Assembly (NCBI GenBank): GCA_020719845.1
Contig: DYPP01000004.1
Location: 1-64,000, forward strand
Source: Treponema denticola
Lineage (GTDB): Bacteria; Spirochaetota; Spirochaetia; Treponematales; Breznakiellaceae
Direction of reading: 5' to 3'
Length of the DNA: 64,000 bases
Shown here: piece by piece, positions 52,165 through 61,356 of the stretch
How positions within the stretch are numbered: position 1 is the first letter of the stretch
Layout: each line of letters starts with the position of its first letter
Program-made: the position numbers and the translations under genes
Notes under the pieces: generated by a model
Seen by the model: the letters and a program-made list of their open reading frames with translations, nothing else
Databases searched by the model: none
Told to the model about the DNA's origin: nothing

Positions 52165-53381
52165 TGGAAAAAGACAAAAAGTCGGCTAGCGAATTGAACG
52201 CGGAATTGGGTTCCGGTTTGGATACCGGATCGAACCAAGATTTGTCGGGAAGCGGGGTTTTTCCGGTCGTAGACGATGTAAGCGCCGAAGACGCGCAAGA
52301 AAAGGACGAATTCTCCGAAATTTCGGAACTTTCCAAAAAAGGCTATCAGCTGCTGAAAGAAAACAAGACTTCAGAAGCCATCGAAGCCTTTGAGAAAATT
52401 CTGGAAAAGGACCAGGACAACAACTACGCCCTGGTCGGATTGGGGGACGCGTCCCGCAAGCGGGGTTCTTTCCGGGAGTCGGTGGAATACTATCGGCGCT
52501 GCCTGAGCCACCATCCGGGCAACAATTACGCCCTGTTCGGCCTGGCGGACTGCTACAAAGCGCTCAACCAGTATCAAAAGGCCATCGAAATTTGGGAGCA
52601 GTACCTGCTCCATGACGACAAGAACATCACCGTGCTGACCCGGGTGGCCGACGCCTACCGCAAGGTGCGGGATTTCCGCCGGTCCAAGGCGGTCTACCTG
52701 CGGGTCCTGGAGATGGAAGAAAACAACCCCTACGCGCTGATCGGACTGGGGCATCTGCACTACGACTTCAAGGAGTACCGGGACGCCCTGTACTACTGGG
52801 AAAAAATGCTCAACCTGCACCGGGACGACGTGGACATCCGGGTGCTCACCTCCATCGGCAACTGCCACCGCAAGCTGAAAACCTTTGACCAGGGCGTGCC
52901 CTACTTCGACCGCGCCCTGGAGATGGATTCCTTCAATTTCTACGCCCTGTTCGGTCTGGCGGACTGCTACCGGGGCATGAACCAGCAGCACAAGTCGCTG
53001 GAATACTGGAACCGCATCCTGGATCAGGACCCCCGCAACAAGGTCATCCTGACCCGGGCGGGGGACGCCTACCGCAACCTGGCGGAGTACGATGAAGCCG
53101 GCGAATACTACCGCCGGGCCTTGAATATCGAATTCGACGTCTACGCCGTGCTGGGCCTGGCGGTGGTGTCCAAAATGCAGGGCAAGTACGACGACGCCAT
53201 CGAGTCCCTGCGCCGGCTGGCCCAGCAGGACCCGAAAAACTACCGGCTCTACATCGAGATGGCGGATTGCTGGATGCGCCGGGGCGACCGGGACCGGGCC
53301 ATGGAGGCGTTGGCGGAATTCCAGAAACTGGGTATGCGCAATTCCTACATCAACGAGTTCCTGGATCGACTGCGGTCTTGA
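52161..53381 (+). CDS. TPR-repeat protein
   Basis: A 406-residue protein. After an acidic, low-complexity N-terminal 60 residues, nine or so TPR repeats of 34 residues follow from residue 60 to the end, easily seen from the recurring ALFGLADCY, ALIGLGHLHY and AVLGLAVV segments. It is a scaffold for protein-protein contact. No transmembrane segment, so it is probably cytoplasmic. It is coupled to the short upstream gene and, by a TGATG overlap, to rlmN. Confidence 0.85.
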   Translation: MMEKDKKSASELNAELGSGLDTGSNQDLSGSGVFPVVDDVSAEDAQEKDEFSEISELSKKGYQLLKENKTSEAIEAFEKILEKDQDNNYALVGLGDASRKRGSFRESVEYYRRCLSHHPGNNYALFGLADCYKALNQYQKAIEIWEQYLLHDDKNITVLTRVADAYRKVRDFRRSKAVYLRVLEMEENNPYALIGLGHLHYDFKEYRDALYYWEKMLNLHRDDVDIRVLTSIGNCHRKLKTFDQGVPYFDRALEMDSFNFYALFGLADCYRGMNQQHKSLEYWNRILDQDPRNKVILTRAGDAYRNLAEYDEAGEYYRRALNIEFDVYAVLGLAVVSKMQGKYDDAIESLRRLAQQDPKNYRLYIEMADCWMRRGDRDRAMEALAEFQKLGMRNSYINEFLDRLRS

Positions 53382-54472
53382 TGGTCCTCAATCCGGTGCT
53401 TTCCGGCCTGGCGCCGGACCAGCTGGCGGCGACGCTGGCGCCCCTGCCCGCCTTCCGGGCCAAACAGGTGTTCAAGTGGCTGTCCCGGGCCGTGCCGTCT
53501 TTTCAGGAGATGACCGACCTTTCCCAGACCCTGCGGGACGATCTGTCCCGCCGCTTCCGGCTGTATTCCAGCTTCGTTTCCGAGCGCCTGGAGGATGCGG
53601 ACGGCACGGTCAAGCTGCAGCTGACCCTGGAAGACGGCGCCAAGATCGAAGCGGTCATCCTGGAAGACGGCGAAGGCCGCAAAACGGCCTGCCTTTCGAC
53701 CCAGGTCGGCTGTCCGATGGCCTGCGCCTTCTGCAAGACCGGCACCCTGGGCCTGCTGCGCAACCTGAAGGCCGCCGAAATGGTGGAGCAATTTATCCAC
53801 CTGCGGGCCATAGCCCCGGAAATCAGCCATATCGTCGTCATGGGCATGGGCGAACCGCTCCTGAACCTGGAAGCCCTGCGCCAGGCGGTGGCGGTGCTGA
53901 CCGATCCGGCCGGCTTCGGCCTTTCCCACCGCCGGATAACCGTGTCCACCAGCGGCCTGGTCGCCGGCATCCGGGACCTGACCGACCGGGGACCCGACCT
54001 GCGGTTGGCCCTGTCCCTGACCACCGCCGATCCGGCGCTGCGCGGGCTGCTGATGCCGGTTACCCGGACCAACCCCCTGCCGGAGGTCAAAAAGGCGCTG
54101 ATCGAACACCAGAAGCGCTTCAAGAAACGCATTACCCTGGAAGCCGTCCTCCTGGGCGGCGTCAACACCCGCATCCAGGACGCGCTGGCGCTGGTCGAAT
54201 TTGCCCGGGACCTGGAAACCATCGTCAACTTGATCCCCTGGAACCAGGTGGACGGGCTGGGCTTGCAGGGCCAGGCTTTCCGGGAGCCGACGGAGGCTGA
54301 AACCGAGCGCTTTGCCCGGGAACTGGAAAAACGGGGCCTGACGGTCACCCGGCGCTACCGCAAGGGACGCGGCGTCTCCGGCGCCTGCGGACAGCTCGGG
54401 TCGACGGACGCCTTTCCGTCAGCCGAAAAAGAACCAGAAGCCGACCTGCGCCGCGCCGATGAAGGCGCCTAA
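53381..54472 (+). CDS. rlmN: 23S rRNA / tRNA adenosine C2-methyltransferase RlmN
   Basis: A 363-residue radical-SAM enzyme. The cluster motif GCPMACAFCKTGTLG has the CxxxCxxC spacing, FRAKQVFKWLSR is the N-terminal RNA-binding segment, VVMGMGEPLLNLE and the C-terminal GRGVSGACGQLG with the resolving cysteine complete the set. It methylates A2503 of 23S rRNA and A37 of some tRNAs. I start at the ATG at 53381. Its 3' end overlaps the convergent DUF445 gene by 54 bp. Confidence 0.95.
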   Translation: MVLNPVLSGLAPDQLAATLAPLPAFRAKQVFKWLSRAVPSFQEMTDLSQTLRDDLSRRFRLYSSFVSERLEDADGTVKLQLTLEDGAKIEAVILEDGEGRKTACLSTQVGCPMACAFCKTGTLGLLRNLKAAEMVEQFIHLRAIAPEISHIVVMGMGEPLLNLEALRQAVAVLTDPAGFGLSHRRITVSTSGLVAGIRDLTDRGPDLRLALSLTTADPALRGLLMPVTRTNPLPEVKKALIEHQKRFKKRITLEAVLLGGVNTRIQDALALVEFARDLETIVNLIPWNQVDGLGLQGQAFREPTEAETERFARELEKRGLTVTRRYRKGRGVSGACGQLGSTDAFPSAEKEPEADLRRADEGA

Positions 54473-55798
54473 GAGGGCACCGAAAATATTGATCCACCGG
54501 AACTGATCGGACATGACGTCCAGGACGATGCGCTCCACCGCCAGCATGTCCAGGGCGTCGACGCGTTCCGACACCAGGGCGCGGACGTCCAGCGTTTTAA
54601 GCGCCGCCGCCATCCGCTCGTCCGCCACCGCCAGCAGGCTGTTGGCCAGAAAAAGGTCGATGTTGTGTTTGGCCTGGTCGCTGAGCGCCAGCAGTTCCGT
54701 CAGGCTGCGGTCCAGCCGGGTTTCAAGCAGGCCGTTCAGTCCCCGGGCCAGTTCGTCCATCGACCGGGCGCGCGCCCGGGCAATCAAGGCGGCGCCCAGC
54801 TTTTGCGTCGCCTCCGCCGCCTCCGCGCCGGTCAGGCTCCGGATCAGCGCCCCCCAGGGACGGTCCAGAAGGGGCAGGATCAGGCCGACGATCCCGGCGG
54901 TGATCCGTTCCGCCGAATCCGTACCCGCCAGCAGGCGCTGCGTCGCATCCTGGACCAGACCGGCCGTCTTGCGCCGGGTCTCCGCCCGGGCCAGCAGGAC
55001 CGCGATCTGGGCGAGCAGGTCGTCGATGATTTCCGGCATCCGCTCGTGCAGGGTGCGGTCGTACTGGGCGGCGGAAACAAAGAAGCGCTGAAAAACGTTG
55101 AGCTTCAACAGGGCTTTGCCCAGAAAAATGCGGCCCTGGGCTTCCAGCTCGGTCCGCACCGGCGGCTTCTCCAGCAACGCCAACAGGTCCTCGCTCAGCC
55201 GGGGATACGCCGCCGCCGCCAGTTCCGCCGCCTCCGCCGCCAGCGTCTCCGCGCCGCCGCACAGGGCGGTGCCGACGAGGGCCTGGAGTTTTTGTTCCAG
55301 CCGGTCCCGGCTCAGCCCCAGGGTTTCGGGCAGCGATTTTTCGGCGTAGGCGTCGGAGAGGGCGGCCAAGGCGCCATCCAACAACTGGGGGGCCAGGGGC
55401 GAATGGATCAGGCCGTAGAGCAACGCGGCGAGGGACCGGGAAAGATCGGCGCCCTCCGGAACGCGTAAAAACCGGGCCAGGCCGCGCACGGGACCGGTCA
55501 ATAAGGGGCTGGTAAAGTCCGCCACCGAGCGTTCCACGGTCCGCCTGAAATCTTCCTGCCCCAGCCGTCGGCGCAGGATGTCTTCGGTGATCAGTTCCCG
55601 TTCCACCATACGGCCGATATTGTCCGCCAGCTGGTGCCGCTGCCGGGGCAGGATGCCCGGGGTAAAGGGCAGGCGCAGGCCAAAGACGCGTACTTCCCTG
55701 AGGGGCCGGAACAGCATCTTGATGGCGATGTCGTTGGTGACGTACCCGATGACCGCGCCGATCAACGGCGGGCCGACATACAACAGGACGCTGTTCAT
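54419..55798 (-). CDS. DUF445 membrane protein
   Basis: A 459-residue protein of the DUF445/YheB group. The N-terminus LIGAVIGYVTNDIAIKMLFRP with RLPFTPGILPRQRHQLA is the family signature. There is one transmembrane helix at each end (residues 5-22 and the final 20, GALLGAFIGAAQVGFWFFFG) and a long helical, probably cytoplasmic or periplasmic, body between. The start is the ATG at 55798. It overlaps rlmN tail-to-tail and the SH3 lipoprotein gene by 4 bp. The function is unknown. Confidence 0.85.
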   Translation of the reverse strand: MNSVLLYVGPPLIGAVIGYVTNDIAIKMLFRPLREVRVFGLRLPFTPGILPRQRHQLADNIGRMVERELITEDILRRRLGQEDFRRTVERSVADFTSPLLTGPVRGLARFLRVPEGADLSRSLAALLYGLIHSPLAPQLLDGALAALSDAYAEKSLPETLGLSRDRLEQKLQALVGTALCGGAETLAAEAAELAAAAYPRLSEDLLALLEKPPVRTELEAQGRIFLGKALLKLNVFQRFFVSAAQYDRTLHERMPEIIDDLLAQIAVLLARAETRRKTAGLVQDATQRLLAGTDSAERITAGIVGLILPLLDRPWGALIRSLTGAEAAEATQKLGAALIARARARSMDELARGLNGLLETRLDRSLTELLALSDQAKHNIDLFLANSLLAVADERMAAALKTLDVRALVSERVDALDMLAVERIVLDVMSDQFRWINIFGALLGAFIGAAQVGFWFFFG

Positions 55799-56190
55799 TT
55801 GGTCAGCGACTCCGCGGCGGTACGCGCCTGGCCTTCGTTTTCGTACACGTCCACGACGTCCGCCTTCAGCCAGCCCCGCAGTCCGTCTTCCACCAAAACC
55901 CACAGCACGGGCACGTCGTCCACCGGCAGGGCGCGGCGTTCCAGGACCCGGACCACGACGCCCCGGCGGAAATATCCCAAAGCCACGCCCGTATCGTCGG
56001 GCTGGTCCAGAATGCGGGCGTAGGAAGGCAGAATCACCCCGTGCCCGACGTGGCTACGCGCCAGAACGGGGGTGGGCGGCGGCCCGGCGACCACTTCCCG
56101 GGCGGAAAACCCGCAGGAGGCGAACAGAAAGCCCGTCAAAACCAGGGCCGCCAACTGGAAACGCGATCCGTATGCCTGTATACTCATCAC
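55795..56190 (-). CDS. SH3-domain lipoprotein
   Basis: A 130-131-residue lipoprotein. The signal region ends FLFASC, cysteine near residue 25. Residues 45-120 form a bacterial SH3-like domain (GYFRRGVVVRVLERR, VLWVLVEDGLRGWLKADVV). It probably binds cell wall or protein. A -10 box TATATT ends 6 nt before a GTG at 56190; the ATG one codon later (56187) is the alternative start. No Shine-Dalgarno is visible. It is divergent from the omptin gene with no free bases for a normal promoter region. Confidence 0.75.
   Translation of the reverse strand: MMSIQAYGSRFQLAALVLTGFLFASCGFSAREVVAGPPPTPVLARSHVGHGVILPSYARILDQPDDTGVALGYFRRGVVVRVLERRALPVDDVPVLWVLVEDGLRGWLKADVVDVYENEGQARTAAESLTK
56155..56184 (+). 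promoter_or_regulatory. Omptin-gene promoter, inside the SH3-lipoprotein gene
   Basis: TATACT (56179-56184) is 6 nt before the GTG start at 56191. The -35 CTGGAA (56155-56160, 18-bp spacer) is weak. It lies in the opposite gene's coding region. Confidence 0.5.
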
Positions 56191-57138
56191 GTGAAGAATA
56201 TACCCGTTTTTGCGCTGCTCGTCAGCATGGGGATCGCATCCGGGATGCAGGCGCAGCAAATAGAGGTCGAATCGTCTTTTGGTGTTTTATTGGGAGAATC
56301 GCAAGAACTGGTGTACGCCTATTCGGGTTCCACGGATATCCTGAGCCGGCTGGACTGGGAAATGATGCCGCTGACCTATTATGGCTCGACGTTGATGCTG
56401 AAGCCGGCTGACGCTGCCGCGTCGGGCTATGTGGTCAATCTCGGCATCAAATTTGGATTCCCCGGAAATACCGGCACCATCGAGGATCGGGACTGGCGGG
56501 GCACGAGCGATGCGCTGACCCATTTTTCCGCCCACGACTGCTTCACCGAACAGGCGCTGCTGGTGGACGCCGCCCTCGGATACCGTTTATCCCTACCGTA
56601 TAACCTTGCTTTGACTCCTCTGGTCAAATTTTCCACCATGCGCTTTCGCTGGACGGCCCGGGATGGATACACCCAGTATGGACCGAACATCAACGAACCC
56701 TATGTCGAGTGGGACTCTTCTTTCGCCAAAGAATCAATCTACGGAACCGGTATTGCCTATGAACAAAACTGGATTCTCATTCTTTCCGGCTTGCAGCTGG
56801 ATTGGCAGGTTGGACGGCGCGGGACCCTGGCATCGGGCATCCTGATCAGTGCCCTGTTGTACTGTGCGGATCAGGATGACCACATTCTTCGTTTGCTGCA
56901 GTTCAACGAAACTATGAGCGGCGGGTTTGCCTATGAACCCCATTTCAGCTTCAGCTACGCCTTTTCAGGCAGGACTACCTTCTCGGCAAAGACGTCCCAT
57001 CGAAACATCCAGGGCTTGCGGGGCGATACCGCGATCATGAAAATCGGAACCGGTACCGATCAGGGTACGGACGAAGACAGCGCCGGGGTTTCCTATTCGG
57101 TTTTTGATTTTACGCTGTCGGCGCGGATATCGCTCTAA
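56191..57138 (+). CDS. Omptin-like outer-membrane aspartyl/histidine protease
   Basis: A 315-residue beta-barrel protein with a signal peptide (residues 1-23, ending GMQAQ). It aligns by eye with OmpT/Pla: GESQELVYAYSG then ILSRLDWEM, and later IEDRDWRGTSD, which supplies the Asp-x-Asp pair (OmpT D83/D85). Further on CADQDDHILR supplies the Asp-x-His pair (D210/H212). FRWTARDGYTQYG matches the YSFTARGG region. So all four catalytic residues are present. Omptins cut surface proteins and peptides at basic residues and normally need LPS. The leaderless GTG start is set by the -10 box. Confidence 0.8.
   Translation: MKNIPVFALLVSMGIASGMQAQQIEVESSFGVLLGESQELVYAYSGSTDILSRLDWEMMPLTYYGSTLMLKPADAAASGYVVNLGIKFGFPGNTGTIEDRDWRGTSDALTHFSAHDCFTEQALLVDAALGYRLSLPYNLALTPLVKFSTMRFRWTARDGYTQYGPNINEPYVEWDSSFAKESIYGTGIAYEQNWILILSGLQLDWQVGRRGTLASGILISALLYCADQDDHILRLLQFNETMSGGFAYEPHFSFSYAFSGRTTFSAKTSHRNIQGLRGDTAIMKIGTGTDQGTDEDSAGVSYSVFDFTLSARISL
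56197..56225 (-). promoter_or_regulatory. SH3-lipoprotein promoter, inside the omptin gene
   Basis: On the minus strand CTGACG (56220-56225), a 17-bp spacer and TATATT (56197-56202), 6 nt before the GTG at 56190. Leaderless by prediction. Confidence 0.5.
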
Positions 57139-57141
57139 AAT

Positions 57142-57573
57142 TCACGAAGAGGTTTTTTGTTTTTCGTCCAGCTGGGGCAGCAGCTTGCGGTCCGAGTCGG
57201 CAAAGTCCAGGGCGGCGATCTCGTCCAGGGGGGCCCAGCGCCAGGCGGTGTGTTCCCGCAGGCTGAAGCCGTCGCCGTCGAAGAAGACTTCGTAGGCCGA
57301 CAGGATGCGGCGCCGTTGATGGTGTTCAAAATGGTCGCTGGCCAGCAGGCTGCCCACACGGATGGCGACGCCGAACTCCTCCCGGTATTCCCGGATCAGC
57401 GCCGCGGCGTCGGATTCGCCGTCTTCGACCTTGCCGCCGGGGAACTCCCACTTGCCGCCCAGGTCACCGCCCGCGACCCGCCGGGCCACAAAAAAAGCCG
57501 CCCCCCGCCGGGCGATACCCGCCACCGAGCGGGCCGGAGCGGATTCGAAAGCTGGGTTGACCGCGTCGGCCAT
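57142..57573 (-). CDS. Nudix hydrolase (MutT-like)
   Basis: A 143-residue protein. The Nudix box GGKVEDGESDAAALIREYRE continuing EFGV is complete (G-x5-E-x7-REUxEExGU). WEFPGGK just before it and WRWAPLDEIAALDF near the end resemble MutT/8-oxo-dGTPases. It likely cleanses oxidised nucleotides. The ATG at 57573 overlaps the upstream stop in TGATG, so it is coupled to the small membrane protein. It is convergent with the omptin gene, only 3 bp apart. Confidence 0.9.
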   Translation of the reverse strand: MADAVNPAFESAPARSVAGIARRGAAFFVARRVAGGDLGGKWEFPGGKVEDGESDAAALIREYREEFGVAIRVGSLLASDHFEHHQRRRILSAYEVFFDGDGFSLREHTAWRWAPLDEIAALDFADSDRKLLPQLDEKQKTSS

Positions 57574-58055
57574 CAGAGAAAAAGCACCGTGGGAAAAAGG
57601 AAGTGGGCCGCCGCGGAGATGATCGCCGTCAGGCCGAACCATTTTTTGTGGCGCATGAAGATGGTTTCCAGTTGGTGGTTTTCGGCTACCGGAACCGTAG
57701 AATGGCTACGATAAAATTCGTAGAGCAAAACAAAGCCCGCCGCCAAACCGGCGGCGGAAGGCAAGAGGTCGCCCAGCACGGGTACGTCCCCGCGCACTGC
57801 GGACAGCAGCTTGAAGAACCCCGTGGCCATGGTGAGCACGCCGAGGATGAGGCGGAACGTTTCGTCCAGAGCATACCCGCGCAGTCCGTCCAGAACGGTG
57901 GAACGGCCGTCGGCTTCGACGGTCAAGGCATACCCGGCCAGCGCGTTGCAAAGAATGGCTAAAAAATAGAACTGTATCATCATTCGCCTCGTATTCCCTT
58001 CTAAAAGATAACCTATTAGCTTACGCAGGTCAACGCGGTAGCTCCAAAATCTCAC
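57573..58055 (-). CDS. Small hypothetical membrane protein
   Basis: A 160-residue protein with four hydrophobic segments (about residues 27-45, 65-85, 95-112 and 138-158). The GTG at 58055 is in a GTGA overlap with the upstream gene, the pattern of coupled genes; a later ATG at 57983 (136 residues, starting just before the first helix) is an alternative. No family recognised. It forms an operon with its two neighbours. The function is unknown. Confidence 0.6.
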   Translation of the reverse strand: MRFWSYRVDLRKLIGYLLEGNTRRMMIQFYFLAILCNALAGYALTVEADGRSTVLDGLRGYALDETFRLILGVLTMATGFFKLLSAVRGDVPVLGDLLPSAAGLAAGFVLLYEFYRSHSTVPVAENHQLETIFMRHKKWFGLTAIISAAAHFLFPTVLFL

Positions 58056-60157: not shown

Positions 60158-61356
60158 CGCCGGACCTCGCCCATAAAGCGATCCGTCCGCCACCAGACGA
60201 CCTTGACCTCGTAGTCCGTGGCCAGGATGCCCGACAGGATCCCGTCTCCGGAAAGGTGGAAGGCGTTGAACCGCAGCTCATCGTCGCTCACCTGGATAAA
60301 GCCCCGCTTCTGGTCCGTGGAATCCAGCTCCAGCAGCAGCAGGGAATAGCCCCCCGGACTGGGGACGGAAAGGAACAGCTTGCCCCCCCGGGCCGCGCCG
60401 ATCAACGAATAGATCAGCCTGGTTTCCACCTTCTTGTCGTTTTCGGTCACGATCTGTTCAAAGGGGGGAATTTCGACGCTCTGCTGGTAGGAACCGTCTT
60501 CCACGTCCATGACCCAGACGACGGAGCCGTCGTATTCGATGCCCGACTTGGTCTTGGTCGATTCGTCGAAGGTATCCAGGTAGTAGTCGACCTTCAAGTA
60601 GATGCGCCGGCTGTCCGGCGAAACCTGGATCGAGTCCAGGGACGGGCGGGATTTGCGGTCCTGAGTTACCGGAATGTCCTCGTTCTGGATGTGCACCAGA
60701 AATAGGGCGGTGCCCTGGCGGTCGAACCAATAGACGTTCCAGCCCGTGGTCAGCCGGCATAGCACCGCCAGTTCGTCCTGGGCGGAGGCGCAGATGCCGT
60801 AGACCCGGGGAAAAGGCGTCCCGCCGATGCCTTCCTGCCCCAGATATTCCACAAAACGGCCGTCCTCGTCAAAGTGCAGGATGGTCGTATCCAGCAGGGT
60901 ACGGTGTTCCACGTCGAAGTTGCGCCGTTCCGCCGGCAGCCGGTCTTCCACGTACAGATGTTTGCGCGAATCCACCGCCAGTTCCCCGGGCTCTCCCAGC
61001 GGATAGGCTACCGCCTGCCGGGTGACCACCTCGTCCGAACCGACTTCGGTCTGGAGGCTCAGGGGCGGCGGATTGGCGTCGGTGTTGTAGATCATGGACA
61101 AAAGATCGCCGTAGGAAGTATAGCGGACCACCTTGGCGCCGTTGCCGTCGGACAGGTAAAAGATGCCGTCCCGCATGGCGATGCGGGTTTTGCGGACGCT
61201 GCGCGTCCCTTCCAGCCCGAAGAGGTCCAGCTGGTCCTCCAGGCGGCCGATGTTGAGCACGAACAGGTTTTCCCGGCCCACGGACTCAACCCGCGGATCG
61301 GCGCAGGAAACAAGGGACAACATGCCGCTGAGCAAAAGGACGGCGATGGATATCAT
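60154..61356 (-). CDS. Large lipoprotein, NHL/propeller-like, LIC_12708-type possible
   Basis: A 400-residue lipoprotein: 17-residue signal, SLVSC lipobox, Cys18. The body is beta-rich, with repeated strand motifs such as MRDGIFYLSDGNGAKVVRYTS, GELAVDSRKHLYVED and ILHFDEDGRFVEYLG, suggesting a beta-propeller. It recalls the LIC_12708 family of Leptospira and Treponema; I cannot verify this. The leaderless ATG is 6 nt from a TATCGT -10 box. It is divergent from secA and cotranscribed with the NAD(P)H-hydrate enzyme. The function is unknown. Confidence 0.75.
   Translation of the reverse strand: MISIAVLLLSGMLSLVSCADPRVESVGRENLFVLNIGRLEDQLDLFGLEGTRSVRKTRIAMRDGIFYLSDGNGAKVVRYTSYGDLLSMIYNTDANPPPLSLQTEVGSDEVVTRQAVAYPLGEPGELAVDSRKHLYVEDRLPAERRNFDVEHRTLLDTTILHFDEDGRFVEYLGQEGIGGTPFPRVYGICASAQDELAVLCRLTTGWNVYWFDRQGTALFLVHIQNEDIPVTQDRKSRPSLDSIQVSPDSRRIYLKVDYYLDTFDESTKTKSGIEYDGSVVWVMDVEDGSYQQSVEIPPFEQIVTENDKKVETRLIYSLIGAARGGKLFLSVPSPGGYSLLLLELDSTDQKRGFIQVSDDELRFNAFHLSGDGILSGILATDYEVKVVWWRTDRFMGEVRR

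Follow-up and report, generated by a model that had tools for sequence, protein, structure and literature searches.

In the window, the stretch of 64,000 nucleotides analysed here, the gene of an omptin-family outer-membrane protease and that of an SH3-like lipoprotein diverge from start codons only 3 bp apart, and the promoter predicted for each gene lies within the first codons of the other. The same layout recurs in 32 genera, so the match in the window goes beyond chance. The identities of the genes, the layout, its conservation at the DNA level, its specificity and its absence from unlinked omptins are direct observations, and we hold with good confidence that they are best explained by two interlocked, mutually exclusive promoters of the sigma70 type, which would give leaderless or near-leaderless messages and would have arisen with a reversed insertion of the omptin gene. 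The features of the locus are as follows.

54419..55798, minus strand, DUF445 gene (PF04286, E 2.2e-35); its start overlaps the SH3 stop (ATGA, 55795-55798)
55795..56187, minus strand, SH3-like lipoprotein gene; signal peptide, lipobox Cys, SH3_3-like domain
56155..56161, plus strand, predicted -35 of the omptin promoter, degenerate CTGGAAA, in SH3 codons 10-11; TGGAAA with a spacer of 17 in the promoter scan, TTGACN in most relatives, at a spacer of 18
56179..56184, plus strand, predicted -10 for omptin, TATACT, within SH3 codons 2-3; ends 6 nt before GTG 56191
56185..56187, minus strand, start codon ATG of the SH3-like lipoprotein gene
56191..57138, plus strand, omptin-family outer-membrane protease gene (Pfam PF01278, E 4e-36); catalytic residues align with those of Pla
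56191..56193, plus strand, omptin start codon GTG, read from the sequence; starts across the aligned junctions are ATG in 58/79 and GTG in 17/79
56197..56202, minus strand, predicted -10 for SH3-DUF445, TATATT, within omptin codons 3-4 (78/79 aligned junctions have ATA as codon 4)
56220..56225, minus strand, predicted -35 for SH3-DUF445, CTGACG, with a spacer of 17, within omptin codons 10-12 (78/79 aligned junctions have GTC as codon 11)
57142..57642, minus strand, NUDIX gene (PF00293, E 6.2e-18); convergent, its stop 3 bp from the omptin stop

The omptin product of 315 residues matches PF01278 over the whole length of the profile with 125 bits, against a curated cut-off of 22.6, and carries the catalytic D-x-D and D-x-H motifs, its EDRDW and DDH aligning with DDYDW and DEH of Pla. 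In the lipoprotein, the lipobox cysteine (Cys25) follows the signal peptide and is invariant in the 17 sequences of relatives; with 17.2 bits the protein of the window does not reach the curated SH3_3 cut-off of 27 bits, and 13 of the 17 relatives match SH3_3 at E up to 0.1. These identities, together with the related junctions, bear out the earlier description of the locus as a compact unit in which two envelope genes diverge. Elsewhere in the window, an RlmN-like radical SAM gene (Radical_SAM and RlmN_N matches) occupies 53267-54472, its possible start lying within the end of the preceding TPR gene.

Read directly, positions 56179-56202 are TATACTCATCAC followed by GTGAAGAATATA. The earlier note had placed the two starts back to back, with the omptin GTG at 56191 and either GTG 56190 or ATG 56187 for the lipoprotein; the omptin start and ATG 56187 stand, and GTG 56190 does not, an ATG being present at the equivalent site in 76 of the 79 aligned junctions, in which the corresponding CAT was an inclusion requirement and is absent in 3. 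A scan of 5 kb for consensus promoters returned three sites against 1.1 expected, and two of the three are the junction pair, 56156-56184 on the plus strand and 56225-56197 on the minus strand. By sequence and conservation the junction can be considered a face-to-face divergent pair, that is, two opposed -35/-10 promoters with overlapping footprints. From the position of its -10 element, omptin transcription is predicted to start at 56191, which would make the message leaderless, and SH3 transcription at 56190, with a leader of about 3 nt.

Among the 195 genomes of the GTDB family of the window, the omptin gene is present in 156 and the SH3 lipoprotein gene in 159, the two being mostly divergent neighbours, and about 90 omptin/lipoprotein junctions were recovered across this family. 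One common layout, exact in most cases and shifted in some, is shared by 79 junctions from the 32 genera: TTGAC-N18/19-TANNNT, the CAT of the lipoprotein start, 2-5 nt (usually 3-4), ATG or GTG, then ARR and ANTATA-N18-GTCA. The location of each promoter inside the coding sequence of the opposite gene, as first proposed for the window alone, is thus a recurrent property of the related junctions. The spacer between the plus-strand -35 and -10 elements is 18 in 71 of 76 junctions, and on the minus strand each of the 67 regex matches has a TATA-GTCA distance of 18. The gap between the two -10 elements in the 67 strict matches is 12 bp in 43, 13 in 21, 14 in two and 10 in one; assuming that transcription starts 7 nt past each -10, the two predicted +1 positions are adjacent or coincident. 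The omptins are mostly only 30-44% identical to that of the window, yet the layout recurs. A search with the full pattern gave 85 matches in 82 of the 195 genomes, 78 of the 85 at an omptin/lipoprotein junction, while the reversed-pattern control gave four; the window genome itself was missed because its -35 has decayed to CTGGAA. Information content, computed with one value per genus, peaks at cTTGAC, TA...T, CAT, A.TATA and GTCA, and falls to 0.26 bit in the plus-strand spacer and to 0.31-0.35 in the outer flanks.

About ten linked junctions deviate from this layout. In genus g22 (L139, L143, L145, L149) the two genes are still divergent, with an apparent head-to-head overlap of about 20 bp between their coding sequences, and the lipoprotein promoter TTGGCA-TATTAT lies inside the omptin gene. 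In G209 and G211 (L155, L165) the omptin start has apparently moved upstream, so that the coding sequences overlap, and the lipoprotein promoter is retained. An insert of about 66 bp separates the two start codons in G017:C131 (L021), with both promoter halves still recognisable. A search for related loci among the genome contigs returned no relative.

According to the mechanism we propose, two promoters of the sigma70 type would face each other across 12 bp in the window (mostly 12-14 bp in relatives), with adjacent predicted start sites. The plus promoter, contained in the first 12 SH3 codons, would produce a leaderless omptin mRNA, and the minus promoter, in the first 12 omptin codons, an SH3-DUF445 mRNA whose leader would measure about 3 nt. 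Only one polymerase could occupy the site at a time, which would make initiation mutually exclusive; output would be divided according to the relative strengths of the two promoters, and each transcript would read through the opposing one. The sigma70-type activity, the start sites, leaderless translation, mutual exclusion and the direction of the rearrangement discussed below are all predicted from the sequence. The earlier suggestion that the two genes are likely co-regulated is not borne out: because the predicted starts are adjacent and the polymerase footprints overlap almost fully, competition is expected rather than shared activation. The earlier note also overlooked the leaderless or nearly leaderless form predicted for both messages and the reversed position of the omptin gene in a row of NUDIX, SH3 and DUF445 genes.

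The order NUDIX-(omptin reversed)-SH3-DUF445 is found in most of the linked loci whose flank is covered. Where the omptin gene is absent from this place, NUDIX, lipoprotein and DUF445 genes are contiguous (G026, G014, G029, G010 and others), as they are in family f5 of the same order (L089). Since omptin-free genomes keep these three genes contiguous, the omptin gene probably came to lie reversed inside an older row, NUDIX-SH3-DUF445 being probably the ancestral arrangement. Its placement between the NUDIX and SH3 genes of the older operon would have made SH3-DUF445 dependent on a promoter within the omptin gene, and the reciprocal embedding of promoters would then have locked the junction in place. 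In G040, a genome of family f4, the gene order is the same, the two starts are about 190 bp apart and the junction element is missing. In G154 (L123) the omptin gene is gone, and what is left of its first codons, including the -10 and -35 elements, is kept beside the NUDIX gene as the lipoprotein promoter. In G005:C14 (L012) the omptin body lies on the same strand as the lipoprotein gene, close upstream of it, and a remnant omptin N-terminus still faces the lipoprotein gene; this is either a rearrangement or an assembly error. The resolution of the DUF445 tree is too low to date the gain of the omptin gene or to count gains and losses, and genus labels are likewise insufficient for this purpose.

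This gene order also suits another explanation, in which most SH3-DUF445 transcription would begin at the NUDIX promoter and run antisense through the omptin gene, the local minus promoter being minor. Such an architecture, the noncontiguous operon or excludon, has been described in S. aureus (PMC7154746), and the locus resembles it in that an oppositely transcribed omptin gene sits within an operon row, the genes of which are contiguous where omptin is absent. Unlike in that system, SH3-DUF445 has its own predicted promoter; moreover, few bases of the locus are as conserved as those of the minus promoter within the omptin gene, which argues against a minor role. We regard predominant read-through as rather unlikely, and note that a local minus promoter and NUDIX read-through are compatible and can both be true.

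The interlocked promoters have their closest known geometry in the face-to-face divergent promoters of E. coli. The promoters of argE/argCBH and bioA/bioBFCD face each other and overlap; they lie between the genes, are controlled by an operator situated between them and give messages with leaders. As in these pairs, opposed promoters at the junction are predicted to face each other and overlap, so that polymerases would compete; unlike in them, the promoters lie inside the opposing coding sequences, the starts are 3 bp apart and there is no conserved operator symmetry. The last point bears on the palindrome. A near-palindrome at 56179-56202 is indeed present as the earlier note described it, its 12-bp arms agreeing at 10 of 12 positions, and this agreement, as well as the operator found in pairs of the argECBH type, would fit a dimeric regulator binding there and governing both genes together. 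The palindrome is not a conserved unit, however: in genomes with a 3-nt gap, symmetry averages 5.80/12 within genomes against 5.82/12 for arms swapped between genera, from which it follows that symmetry is not selected as such, and the conserved bases sit on sigma70 elements at sigma70 spacing. The value of 10/12 is peculiar to the window genome and derives from its better plus-strand -10 and its GTG start. The lack of covariation between the arms across genomes leads us to reject the palindrome as an operator, and joint control through it is very improbable; a regulator binding outside it is possible.

Equally improbable is an ordinary bidirectional promoter of the type described by Warman, Grainger and colleagues, in which one symmetric -10 serves both directions. 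In promoters of this kind the starts are 7-25 bp apart, most often 18, and the polymerase sites overlap so that binding in one orientation blocks the other (PMC12825309, PMC10268837). Divergent RNAs, overlapping polymerase sites and mutual exclusion, all of them predicted for the junction, fit this description (PMC12825309), whereas its two separate -10 elements, 12 bp apart, lie outside predicted (unmapped) starts only about 1 bp apart, a geometry that does not suit a shared element. The two-promoter reading may nevertheless share their behaviour, by analogy: for their promoters, Warman et al. found competition to be of consequence only if one of the two directions is strongly active, and to reduce variation between cells (PMC12825309).

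The least probable explanation, which we can practically dismiss, is that the junction is conserved for the needs of two signal peptides and not for a function of the DNA; both genes open with M-K/R, as is typical of signal peptides, and linked omptins hardly vary at Ile4 and Val11, but unlinked omptins carry quite different signal peptides, codons are fixed beyond what the amino acids require, and at some positions the residue varies while two bases stay. Omptin codon 4 is ATA and codon 11 GTC, each in 78 of 79 junctions, against 246 of 774 isoleucine codons (32%) and 169 of 725 valine codons, respectively, elsewhere in the sequence read; these junction counts come from an alignment anchored on TATA and GTCA and are therefore partly circular. 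The amino acid at omptin codon 3 varies among N, S and T, and the codon is almost always A-n-T; lipoprotein codon 10 encodes G, S or R, with GT as its last two bases in nearly every case, and 68 of the 70 glutamines at codon 11 are written CAA. The constrained bases coincide with elements of the opposing promoter, and since codons are fixed where amino acids vary, the constraint acts on the DNA. The test was repeated without the anchoring motifs, omptin starts being picked by signal-peptide character only: among the first 20 codons, TATA-N18-GTCA occurs in 67 of the 88 linked omptins and in one of the 27 unlinked ones, and the sole exception (G193) is actually linked across a contig break, which leaves 0 of 26. 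Unlinked omptins and codon use thus refute protein constraint as the main cause, and the comparison of this junction in related genomes substantiates the earlier proposal that bases are conserved beyond protein need.

As regards translation, both starts of the interlocked pair fit the signature of leaderless genes, in which a TANNNT box precedes the start codon by about 12 bp (Zheng et al. 2011, PMC3160421). Across the junctions the -10 element ends 6-8 nt before the omptin start and 9-11 nt before the SH3 start, compared with about 6 nt and no Shine-Dalgarno sequence in leaderless genes; we infer that the omptin mRNA is leaderless and that only about 3 nt precede the ATG in the lipoprotein mRNA, neither having room for a Shine-Dalgarno sequence. 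Counting promoter-like sites by their distance from candidate starts gives 20 at 5-9 nt upstream in 400 kb of G165, where 5-nt bins elsewhere contain 7.0, and 4 against 1.2 in 209 kb of the window genome. This enrichment matches in magnitude the mean of 3.9% that Zheng et al. (2011, PMC3160421) report for leaderless genes in those Spirochaetes genomes where any occur. Leaderless starts are thus a minority class, and two at one shared site are therefore unusual; in contrast to the genes of Zheng et al., the junction locks two such starts head to head. A further leaderless-type start is found at 61356 on the minus strand of the window (TTGACA, 17 nt, TATCGT, 6 nt, ATG).

The plus-strand -10 of the window, TATACT, is the strongest variant, stronger than usual, and its -35 is poor. 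TATACT is also present in G025, G062 and G149, which have lost TTGAC, and in G148, which has kept it; TTGAC is thus lost in four of the five TATACT genomes, including that of the window. This suggests that a strong -10 compensates for a lost -35, in about three independent events; across genomes there is no general anticorrelation of -35 and -10 strength (Spearman -0.02). In relatives the plus-strand -10 is often weak (TACTCT, 3/6 matches), and for this reason the omptin promoter may need an activator.

On the best reading, the mutually exclusive promoter pair is new as a combination of parts that are already known. Tentatively, and with somewhat less than even probability, the interlocked promoters may be a conserved device that makes each initiation yield either the protease or the lipoprotein-DUF445 message, both of them leaderless, and so fixes their ratio or their cell-to-cell variation. 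The junction is a naturally occurring and deeply conserved example of two opposed genes that each carry the other's promoter in their coding sequence, so that about 70 bp accommodate codons, signal peptides, start codons and both promoters. It also illustrates how a gene placed in reverse within an operon can get locked there, and its natural variants, with inserts, shifted starts, a lost -35 or a deleted omptin gene, are suited to the study of promoter competition and leaderless translation in spirochaetes. In the bacteria that carry it, the arrangement should allow only one of the two genes to start at a time.
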